Below, piece after piece: positions 12,316 to 26,736 of a DNA stretch of 41,179 nt. The DNA is from an uncultured bacterium. Lineage in GTDB: Bacteria > Omnitrophota > Gorgyraeia > Ghiorseimicrobiales > Ghiorseimicrobiaceae. The stretch is taken from assembly GCA_913009335.1 (NCBI GenBank), contig CAJVXN010000017.1:1-41179 (forward strand). The letters are read 5' to 3'. Each line of letters opens with the position of its first letter. Position 1 is the first letter of the stretch. The notes beneath the pieces are model-generated. The model had not been told where the DNA came from and ran no database searches. It saw nothing but the letters and a program-made list of their open reading frames with translations. A program made the translations under genes and the position numbers.

Positions 12316-12378
12316 GAAAAGAATAAGATTTGTAAGGGGTAATTTAAGGATGCGGTATTAAACTTTTCCTTTGGTAGT

Positions 12379-12412
12379 GGCTTTGGCTATCGGTTGCCAA
12401 ACCATCGCCCTC
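12379..12412 (-). repeat. perfect 34-nt inverted copy of tandem-repeat unit 2 in the intergenic region
   Basis: ggctttggctatcggttgccaaaccatcgccctc is the exact reverse complement of 11971-12004 (gagggcgatggtttggcaaccgatagccaaagcc). Confidence 0.95.
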
Positions 12413-12430
12413 AGGCTCATAGAAAGGTTA

Positions 12431-13870
12431 ATGATGGATTTTATATACGGGTTTTTTACAGATTTTATAATCAGAGATGTTTTAGATGTTGCGATTATTG
12501 CGGTATCTATTTATATGGCTTTGGTTTGGTTTGAAAAAGCAAGAGCCCGTTTTATGATGATTGGTTTATTTATTTTGGGTTTAATCTATTTTATTGCTCG
12601 TTTCTTTGGTTTGTATTTAACTACTATTATGTTCCAGGCTTTTTTTGCCGTATTTTTAATAATGTTGGTAATAATATTTCAGGATGAATTACGGCATTTC
12701 TTTGAGCGTGTAGCTTTATGGGGTTTGATTCGTAAAAAACGGCGATTTACATCGCTTAATCAAAATATTGAAATTTTGGCAAATACAATTGCTAATTTCT
12801 CACGTAAAAAAATTGGCGCTTTAATTGTTTTAAAGGGAAATGATCCTTTGGACCGTCATGTTGATGGAGGATTGCTTCTTGAAGGTGTTTTGAGTCAGAT
12901 TATGCTGGAGAATATTTTTAGTCCTCATGTCGCTACTCATGATGGCGCGATAATTATTGAGGAGGGGCGTATTGTTAAGGTGGGGTGTCATTTGCCTCTT
13001 TCGATAAATATTCAGAAGATTGGTCATTCCGGAACACGGCATGCAGCAGCTTTAGGTTTATCCGAGCGTACGGATAGTATAAGTCTTGTTGTTTCAGAAG
13101 AGACAGGTACGATATCCATTGCTGATGGCGATAGAATAAGGGTGGTAAAGGATATTGTCGGCTTGCGTCTGCGGCTGGAAGATTTTTACCGTAAGCGCTT
13201 TCCTCGACGTGGAAAATTTTTTGCTGATTTTCTGACAGGGCATATTTTAGAGAAGCTTATAGCGGTTATTCTTTCTTGCAGTTTATGGGTTGGGTTTGTT
13301 CAGAATCAAGAAGTGGTTCGCCGGGATTTTGTTGTCCCTATTGAGTATCGCAATCTTGCTTCGGATTGGATAATTGGGGAGCCTAAATCCAGAGAAGCAA
13401 CAGTTGCTTTAAGCGGGACAGAGAGGACCTTTTATCTTGCCAAGTCGGAAGAGGTTAAGATATCGTTAGATATGTCGCAAGTTAAAGAAGGGGATAATGA
13501 AATTTTCTTGGATAAGGATAGCCTGCGCAGGCCCTCAGGGCTTTCGGTCGTAAGTATTACGCCCCATAAAATTAGTCTTAGTGTTTATAAGATGCTTAAT
13601 TTTAATGTTCCTGTTGAGATTGAAACGTCTGGACGTGTTGCCTATGGCTTTGAGGTTAAGGAGATTAAGGTTATTCCCGAGAAGGTTTCTATTGTTGTTC
13701 CAAGTATATTACCGAGAGAGAAAATTAAAATTACGACAGAAGTAATTGATTTGCGGAAATTGAAAGAATCTAAAACTTTTACTCCGAAAATTATACTGCC
13801 TGCAGAGTTACGATTTTCGGAAGATAAAACCCCTCAGATAAAAGTATCGGTTATCGTAGAAAAGAAATAA
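12431..13870 (+). CDS. cdaA: membrane diadenylate cyclase (CdaA/DisA_N) fused to C-terminal YbbR/CdaR-like domains
   Basis: Three N-terminal TM helices; DGAIIIEEGRIVKVGCHLPLS; GTRHAAALGLSERTDSISLVVSEETGTISIA; then a further TM and YbbR-like repeats VVPIEYRNLASDWIIGEPKSREATVALSG and FNVPVEIETSGRVAYGFEVKEIKVIPEKVSI. Track start 12371 is a TTG inside the repeat; ATG at 12431 follows aaagg. Confidence 0.9.
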   Translation: MMDFIYGFFTDFIIRDVLDVAIIAVSIYMALVWFEKARARFMMIGLFILGLIYFIARFFGLYLTTIMFQAFFAVFLIMLVIIFQDELRHFFERVALWGLIRKKRRFTSLNQNIEILANTIANFSRKKIGALIVLKGNDPLDRHVDGGLLLEGVLSQIMLENIFSPHVATHDGAIIIEEGRIVKVGCHLPLSINIQKIGHSGTRHAAALGLSERTDSISLVVSEETGTISIADGDRIRVVKDIVGLRLRLEDFYRKRFPRRGKFFADFLTGHILEKLIAVILSCSLWVGFVQNQEVVRRDFVVPIEYRNLASDWIIGEPKSREATVALSGTERTFYLAKSEEVKISLDMSQVKEGDNEIFLDKDSLRRPSGLSVVSITPHKISLSVYKMLNFNVPVEIETSGRVAYGFEVKEIKVIPEKVSIVVPSILPREKIKITTEVIDLRKLKESKTFTPKIILPAELRFSEDKTPQIKVSVIVEKK

Positions 13871-18214: not shown

Positions 18215-18373
18215 TATGTATAGGTTGTGTCAATCGCATATTTTGTAATCTAAGAGATTATTTATCCCAAATTTTGCATTAAACATAAAGTAATAATGGT
18301 AATTCATTAAGAGTACTATAGTTATATAATATAATGTACTATTGCGTCAAAAAAGTGCAATACAAAACTCTGG

Positions 18374-18462
18374 ATTACCTCAACAGGCACAATAAAATCG
18401 CATCGAGATTTTATTGGTTGGCCCTACGGGCAGATTTTTCTAATGAAAAATCTGGGTTTATT
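18374..18462. repeat. intergenic structured repeat, copy 1
   Basis: attacctcaac..gcacaat + perfect hairpin caataaaatc-gcatcga-gattttattg + ggttgRccctacgggcagatttttctaatgaaaaatctgggttta. Confidence 0.9.
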
Positions 18463-18465
18463 GAA

Positions 18466-18565
18466 ATTACCTCAACGAGCACAATAATACTCCCCCTTTT
18501 TTAAAGGTGAAGTATTATCGGTTGACCCTACGGGCAGATTTTTCTAATGAAAAATCTGGGTTTAT
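18466..18565. repeat. intergenic structured repeat, copy 2 (different central stem)
   Basis: Same flanks as copy 1; central stem ataatact...agtattat; 3' part gaccctacgggcagatttttctaatgaaaaatctgggtttat nearly identical to copy 1. Confidence 0.9.
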
Positions 18566-18588: not shown

Positions 18589-19638
18589 ATGAAAAATACT
18601 TTATTGATAGTAGGAGATCTTACTTTAGATGGGTTTAAGCCCGCGCCTTCTTTAAATAGGTTTTTGGAGTATCGGGATGCAATTAAACATCGCGGCATGG
18701 GTTTTGAATTTATTACTTATGATGATGTATTTGCCGGGAGGTTTCCTAATATTCTAACCCGCAAGCTTAAAATATTACTTTTTTTCCCTTATAATTATTG
18801 GAATAATAACATTGAAAGATACACCAAAGATGACCGTATTTATGGAAATGATGCCTTCGGTACTGAATATGCTGATTTTTTTAAACAGGTGAGCTATATC
18901 ATAACCAAAAATTATAAAAATAAGCAGATCGAATATGCCAATTCTCCAAATTCCTGTGTCCTAGACCGAGATAAGCGTAAGACAAACACTAAGTTGGCTA
19001 AGGCTGGGATTCTTGTCCCTAAAATATATAAATTACGCAGCTTAGAAAAATTTCATCATTTACTCAAATACCATGATTTGTATATTAAGCCGCCTTATGG
19101 CTCAATGGGTAAGGGTATATCCTTTGTTACCAAAAATAAATGTTATACTAATTTTATCTTTGACGGCAAGAAAATTATAAGCCGCCCCTTTGATTATAAT
19201 TGGGAGTTTGTTGAACTTCCTAGAAAAGAACAGGATGCCTTTATAAAGATTCTCATCAAAAACAAGTTTATATTTGAGGAGGCTATTTGTACGCCAATAG
19301 TTAGGCGAAGAAAGTTTGATTTGCGTGTTTATGTTATTTATAGCGAAATCCCTTATTTTTACGCGCGCAGCACGCCGTATAAAAGATTTATTACTAATTG
19401 GTCCCAAGGCGGCAGGATAGAAGATCAGAAGTTTCTCGGGGGAGTTTTTTCCGGGGAAAAGATGAATGAGGTTTTTAATATTGCCAGGCGCTGCGCGAAA
19501 ATTCTGAAGATAAATTATATGGGCATAGATATACTACCAAGTCATGATTTCAAAAAAACATACGTTTTAGAGGCGCATTCCTTTCCGGGGTATGAGCATG
19601 GTTTTGATTTGATGGGTTTTTTAGCATCTAAGGTTTAG
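18589..19638 (+). CDS. ATP-grasp family protein (RimK/YheC-D-like)
   Basis: LYIKPPYGSMGKGISFV; RRKFDLRVYVIYSEIPYFYARSTPYKRFITNWSQGGRIE; GIDILPSHDFKKTYVLEAHSFPGYE. Track start 18547 lies in the repeat hairpin; ATG 18589 has SD aggag. Confidence 0.8.
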   Translation: MKNTLLIVGDLTLDGFKPAPSLNRFLEYRDAIKHRGMGFEFITYDDVFAGRFPNILTRKLKILLFFPYNYWNNNIERYTKDDRIYGNDAFGTEYADFFKQVSYIITKNYKNKQIEYANSPNSCVLDRDKRKTNTKLAKAGILVPKIYKLRSLEKFHHLLKYHDLYIKPPYGSMGKGISFVTKNKCYTNFIFDGKKIISRPFDYNWEFVELPRKEQDAFIKILIKNKFIFEEAICTPIVRRRKFDLRVYVIYSEIPYFYARSTPYKRFITNWSQGGRIEDQKFLGGVFSGEKMNEVFNIARRCAKILKINYMGIDILPSHDFKKTYVLEAHSFPGYEHGFDLMGFLASKV

Positions 19639-26087: not shown

Positions 26088-26283
26088 GTAAAAAAGATTG
26101 TTTTTATCGGCCAGCTGTGGCAAAATAGATAACATATATACTAAGTATTTATTGATACGTTCGACGGCGTCATGCGTCGCTCAGTATTCTTTCGATTTTA
26201 TTCAGGACTAAGCTTAGATGGTGAGCGAGGGCGAATTATAATTCTGAGCAAGGGTGAATGGATTGATGTGTTGGGAGGGGTTG

Positions 26284-26736
26284 ATGGATTGTCCGGTATG
26301 TCGCGATGCAATGATAGTTTTGGAATTAGACAACGTCGAGATCGATTATTGTTCGACTTGTTCTGGTATTTGGCTGGATAAGGGAGAGCTTGAGCTTTTA
26401 TTGGAGAGTAGTTCTAAGAAAGACGATTTGCTTGCATCTTTTCGTCTAGACTTACAAAATAAAGAAAAAAAGCGGCCCTGTCCTATATGTTTAAAGAAGA
26501 TGCAGAAGGTTTTTTCTACTGTAGGGGAAAGTATCCTCATTGATAAGACCTCTTCTTTAAAAGTATCCGGAGGGTCTATCCTCGTGGATAAATGTAGGCA
26601 AGGCGATGGTATTTGGTTTGATAAGGGTGAACTTAGCGGGATTATTCAGAGATCGAGCCTTGATAAATATAATAAGGTTTTGAATCTGATCAGGGATATG
26701 TTTGCCGGAGAATTTAGCGTCAAGAAAGATGTCTAA
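26284..26736 (+). CDS. zf-TFIIB-like zinc-ribbon protein
   Basis: MDCPVCRDAMIVLELDNVEIDYCSTCSGIWLDKGELELLL; second half RPCPICLKKM...VDKCRQGDGIWFDKGELSGII. SD gggagggg upstream of ATG 26284. Confidence 0.87.
   Translation: MDCPVCRDAMIVLELDNVEIDYCSTCSGIWLDKGELELLLESSSKKDDLLASFRLDLQNKEKKRPCPICLKKMQKVFSTVGESILIDKTSSLKVSGGSILVDKCRQGDGIWFDKGELSGIIQRSSLDKYNKVLNLIRDMFAGEFSVKKDV

Follow-up and report, generated by a model that had tools for sequence, protein, structure and literature searches.

Comparison with described mobile elements

Insertion sequences of the IS1380 family (NF033539, PF13701), such as ISEcp1 and ISPme1, generate AT-rich target duplications of 5 bp; that of ISEcp1 was TATGA, with a preference for AT-rich targets (PMC2887853). 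Bacterial MITEs are short, non-coding, multi-copy, intergenic elements with target duplications and with terminal inverted repeats (TIRs) in common with an autonomous element. REP/BIME sequences associated with RAYT genes are extragenic palindromes, often found in inverted pairs, and the REP superfamily is marked by GTAG or CGTC (PMC3733652).

The window (the whole stretch of 41,179 nucleotides that was analysed, from the Omnitrophota genome G000) contains a 295-bp non-coding insertion (18266-18560) with both of its hairpin units inside and TTTAT on either side. Like the IS1380 insertion sequences, it has an AT-rich 5-bp target duplication, and the IS1380 transposases of related genomes are flanked by the same 17-bp ends starting with CCC; unlike them, it has no coding capacity, is only 295 bp long and carries hairpin units that were not observed in those insertion sequences. 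Its family agrees with bacterial MITEs in every property listed above, but its members hold modular units of four stems, either singly or as two in tandem or head to head, and turnover in these is heavy and compensatory. With REP/BIME sequences it shares the extragenic palindromes and inverted pairs, but not the GTAG/CGTC tag, and it differs from them in having TIRs, 5-bp duplications and only rare RAYT neighbours.

The window element is very probably a non-autonomous transposon of the MITE type with IS1380-type TIRs, placed by an IS1380 family transposase that is absent from the finds in G000. On the basis of ends, duplication, size and copy number, the family is best read as a new MITE family mobilised by IS1380 transposases, and this is backed by the observed copy number, shared ends, target duplications, patchy spread, empty site in a congener and DNA-type covariation. 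A literature search of partial coverage found no IS1380-derived MITE and no such repeats in Omnitrophota; the family supplies a MITE family for the IS1380 (piggyBac-like) transposases. Its unusual part is the internal four-stem unit and the way in which the arms of that unit stay matched.

Architecture of the window element

The original prediction, made from the letters of the window, described two copies of an intergenic element at an offset of about 92 nt, with conserved flanks and a swapped but self-complementary central stem. These are present as described: the left blocks (ATTACCTCAACRRGCACAATAA) lie 92 nt apart, and the 51-nt right blocks are 96% identical at an offset of 104 nt, which is 12 nt larger because the central stem of copy 2 is longer. 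The central hairpin of copy 1 pairs at 10 of 10 positions and that of copy 2 at 88%, and the CCC-TAC-GGG and CAGATTTTTC/GAAAAATCTG hairpins are found in both copies. The chance expectation of the right-hand motif in the window is 0.01 occurrences, and folding of the region is far stronger than that of shuffled sequence (z of -4.4 as RNA, -5.1 and -6.9 as DNA).

The left limit of the element (18266) lies approximately 108 bp to the left of these repeats, where the element opens with its right end in inverted form: TTTAT-CCCAAATTTTGCATTA, from 18261 onward, is the inverted copy of CTAATGAAAAATCTGGG-TTTAT (18544-18565), and the TIR motif has an exact match at 18262-18277. There is no long ORF within the element. 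The weak hairpin of its AT-rich spacer (Table 1) is similar to a GCAC-TAAAAA-GTGC hairpin at the equivalent place in other copies. Each unit consists, in order, of ATTACC, a bulged P1-P2 stem, a CCC-TAC-GGG hairpin (P3), the CAGATTTTTC/GAAAAATCTG hairpin (P4) and GGG.

Table 1. Features of the element in the window and its downstream neighbour
Feature	Position	Strand	Remarks
Left copy of target duplication, TTTAT	18261..18265	.	Flush with CCC (right copy flush with GGG)
Left terminal inverted repeat, CCCAAATTTTGCATTAA	18266..18282	+	Shares 15/17 bases with the end next to the IS1380 transposase of G201
AT-rich spacer	18283..18373	+	Weak hairpin TATTGC..GCAATA at ~18341-18361
Unit 1	18374..18456	+	Covariance-model score 108.5 bits; ATTACC first, GGG last
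Stems of unit 1	P2 18390-18399/18407-18416; P3 18422-18430; P4 18431-18440/18445-18454		P1 CAAC/GTTG with 5-nt bulge
TTTAT between units	18457..18461	.	
Unit 2, tandem copy	18466..18560	+	93.5 bits; different central stem, 18484-18499/18503-18518
Right terminal inverted repeat, CTAATGAAAAATCTGGG	18544..18560	-	Shares 16/17 bases with the end next to the IS1380 transposase of G201
Right copy of target duplication, TTTAT	18561..18565	.	
ATP-grasp gene (YheC/D-like), outside the element	18589..19638	+	Own GAGGAG ribosome site

The left end and unit 1 alone would equal a complete element of 191 bp, with TTTAT again directly behind it, which makes a tandem duplication, within or at the terminus of an element that first measured 191 bp, the best interpretation of unit 2. 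The swap of the central stem is real, since P2 differs between the units in both sequence and length. The stem of copy 2 (TTTAAAGGTGAAGTATTAT, TTTAAAGG) has one other exact occurrence in four genomes, inside an element of the same genome (G000:C10:24581-24714), where it adjoins a typical P2 stem; its remaining matches are near background or part of another repeat.

Copy number, distribution and orientation to genes

A covariance model built from six copies identifies 12 confident copies (E < 1e-6) in the genome of the window, so the further copies that the original prediction proposed to look for do exist, and copies were found with it in 36 of the 246 genomes of the class. The number per genome ranges from 1 to about 40 (37 in G023 at E <= 0.1), and complete copies are approximately 100-310 bp long, with head-to-head pairs frequent in the other genomes. 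An exact pattern searched against 84,980 species genomes matched 24 stretches, 21 of them from Omnitrophota; the family is patchy and lineage-restricted, and its named matches are almost all Omnitrophota. Related palindromes with the same ends are found in two metagenome-assembled genomes labelled Chitinophagaceae and Bacteroidetes (L167, L152), which reflects either horizontal spread or mis-binned contigs. Many copies lie at contig ends, as expected of repeats, and the family accounts for repeats that break Omnitrophota genome assemblies.

Judged from the long ORFs around each copy, the right end faces a gene start and the left end a gene stop in 42 cases, and the reverse holds in 41, as expected if the element is tolerated in intergenic space alone. 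This balance bears on whether the element is a structured regulatory RNA, a riboswitch-like tandem leader of the ATP-grasp gene, as could be suggested by its position 24 nt before the ATG, its strong covariation, its UNCG-like P3 loops, and the right ends that touch the start codons of ftsA, ruvC and other genes. Right ends frequently abut start or stop codons because the flanking TTTA/ATAA gives TAA or precedes ATG, and the two gene orientations are equally common, so the element is evidently not a leader RNA. With target duplications at its borders, no Rfam match for the element and no preference for wobble pairs (see below), a leader function is highly improbable. A structured RNA was one of the three readings offered by the original prediction; one with a common function is disfavoured.

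Terminal inverted repeats and target duplication

For each right end, the inverted CCCRRATTTTK motif lying farthest out, up to 330 bp away, was taken as its partner. Among the 51 complete copies, 22 have identical AT-rich 5-bp flanks flush with CCC and GGG (TTTAT, ATAAT, ATTAT, TTTAA, TTAAA and ATTAA being the duplicated 5-mers seen), where 3.5 would be expected and the highest of 300 re-pairings gave 9; the pairing of ends was blind to flank matches, except that motifs at inner unit borders were excluded by their flank. A perfect 5-bp duplication is lacking in the other 29 complete copies. The 3-bp TWA core of the flanks is repeated directly in 31 cases and inversely in one, and this direct polarity rules out that the flanks simply prolong the inverted repeat. 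An initial reading of the flanks as a 3-bp TWA duplication (IS5/PIF-like) was abandoned because the flush 5-bp test fits better. The TIR motif is present in 53 exact copies in G023, which contains none of the reversed pattern.

IS1380 family transposases in related genomes

Because the duplication and target preference of ISEcp1 resemble those of the element, the IS1380 transposase family (PF13701) was sought in the relatives. G022 encodes a 436-aa IS1380 transposase (NCBIfam NF033539, E 1.4e-78; PF13701) between perfect 17-bp CCCGGATTTTGCAATAG repeats, at a contig edge that leaves its left flank unread. In G216, a transposase 54% identical to that of G022 is bounded by perfect CCCGGATTTTGCATTAG repeats. 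G201, a genome with eight copies of the element, has a C-terminal fragment of an IS1380 transposase followed by CTAATGCAAAATCTGGG, an end that matches the left and right ends of the window element at 15 and 16 of 17 bases, respectively. No internal P1-P3 unit was observed in this parent. An IS1380 family element of another clade, with ends CCTGAATAATGCGT and a TTGAT duplication, is located at 1679-3189 of L237 (G023:C175).

The genome of the window (92.6% complete) gave no match to PF13701 and none to the G022 protein at E 1e-20; the mover is therefore deduced from the relatives, and the copies in this genome are most likely relics. According to the proposed mechanism, an IS1380 family transposase would have inserted an element with ends CCCRRATTTTGCATTAG... 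into an AT-rich intergenic target, duplicating TTTAT (5 bp); the element carries inside it a four-stem unit (outer ACC/GGT, bulged P1-P2, P3 and P4), tandemly doubled in the window, and the IS1380 transposase clade of the relatives would move it in trans.

The intergenic hairpins and inverted pairs would also be expected if the element were a palindrome of the REP/BIME type moved by a RAYT (Y1 tyrosine transposase), and the genome of the window has five Y1 transposase genes, one of them about 400 bp from a copy. However, that RAYT has AAGGGAGTTGACCCC repeats of its own, of 20 RAYT-centred stretches, only two have an element within about 1 kb of the gene, and no GTAG/CGTC tag is present at the foot of the hairpins, the conserved unpaired bases being ATTACC and an RRGCA bulge. 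Since the family has TIRs with 5-bp target duplications as well as IS1380 parents, mobilisation by a RAYT is largely refuted and can be given very little probability. The AAGGGAGTTGACCCC repeats on both sides of the RAYT-like Y1 transposase gene (L086, G000:C52, 3095-3910) are probably the REP family of that gene.

Of the readings in the original prediction, that of a mobile palindromic element is thus borne out by the many copies, the inverted ends shared with IS1380, the 5-bp target duplications and the congener with an empty site. A recombination site of the integron type receives no support: the RYYYAAC...GTTRRRY core of attC sites is missing, and P1 varies freely (CAAC/GTTG, CGAC/GTCG, CGAT/ATCG).

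Covariation of the hairpin arms

In an alignment of 105 copies, which was fitted to the stem structure, standard pairs occupy 94.8 to 99.0% of the cells of each helix from P1 to P4, and changes on both sides of a pair number 615 (outer stem included); shuffling gave 171 and slid controls no more than 125. Such changes are seen already between copies only four positions apart. The helices of a structured RNA would be expected to accept G·U much more readily than A·C. Here they contain 33 G·T and 32 A·C, and the copies in sense orientation have 13 of each, whereas tRNAs from the same loci have 22 G·T and no A·C, a control biased by the tRNA finder. The null result for G·T is conservative, because fitting to a model in which G·U is allowed could raise the G·T count but not lower it. 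As G·T is no commoner than A·C, it is concluded that the palindromes are maintained at the DNA level and not as a one-strand RNA. The original argument that divergent arms with preserved pairing denote a selected structure therefore holds as regards covariation, which is overwhelming, but not as regards selection on an RNA from one strand.

The P3 loop follows the rule T-N-C (44 TTC, 19 TAC, 9 TGC and 4 TCC), which is compatible with a UNCG tetraloop in RNA from one strand and a C-GNA-G triloop in DNA of the other; the rule fits both forms and so does not decide between them.

Template switching between the arms is the likeliest cause of arm matching, with selection for a DNA hairpin as the alternative, and an RNA under selection on both strands alike is possible. 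The arms would stay complementary by template switching, the quasi-palindrome mechanism discussed in PMC3820800, or by arm-to-arm correction during hairpin replication, rather than through an RNA function. That the four-stem unit persists in dozens of genera through hairpin-templated correction, or through selection for a cruciform or single-stranded DNA form required for spread, with RNA-like covariation but no wobble as the result, is a tentative proposal, somewhat short of probable. Overwhelming covariation can occur in a palindrome that is not RNA, which is a warning for RNA discovery, and missing wobble pairs are a cheap filter against false RNA families. If paired evolution at the DNA level is true, covariation alone is no proof of a structured RNA, and the ratio of G·T to A·C is a simple discriminator.

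Individual insertion sites

The other three genomes of the family gave no hit for the ATP-grasp gene at E 1e-20, so an occupied site can be compared with an empty one only upstream of ruvC, where G000 carries the element, as does G003, which belongs to another genus, but G002, a congener of G003, lacks it. The copies of G000 and G003 are 77% identical and differ by a paired change from A-T to G-C in P2. Either an old insertion was lost in G002 or the element was acquired twice; common descent of the two copies is favoured by unusual features that only they share. Copies of G000 and G001 abut an identical junction at tRNA-Gly(TCC).

These sites raise the question of whether the mobile element retains or has acquired a function for the host in certain locations (behind tRNA-Gly, before ruvC), with selection for pairing there. 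The occurrence of the ruvC copy in two genera with a compensated P2 pair, and the identical tRNA-Gly junction, are consistent with such a role, but the ruvC copy is missing in G002 and hence dispensable there. A host role is rather unlikely, and it refines the interpretation as an IS1380-mobilised MITE without replacing it.

In G003, the P3 loop of the ruvC copy (L049) is interrupted by a double-hairpin repeat of about 61 bp (TCCCTAGGAATTGCGAAG...CCTCGGGA), with no target duplication visible by comparison with the G000 copy. Repeats related to this insert replace the left end of several copies elsewhere (L017, L131, L192).

Other features of the window

A second short repeat (ATAAGACYC..CCTTTAAA..GGTCTATCC..GTGGATAAA, approximately 50 bp) is located at 26541-26592 of the window and at several other sites of the genome; the window copy lies in frame within a Zn_ribbon_TFIIB protein (ORF 26254-26736). 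A single ORF at 12371-13870 encodes both a diadenylate cyclase (DAC) domain and a YbbR domain.
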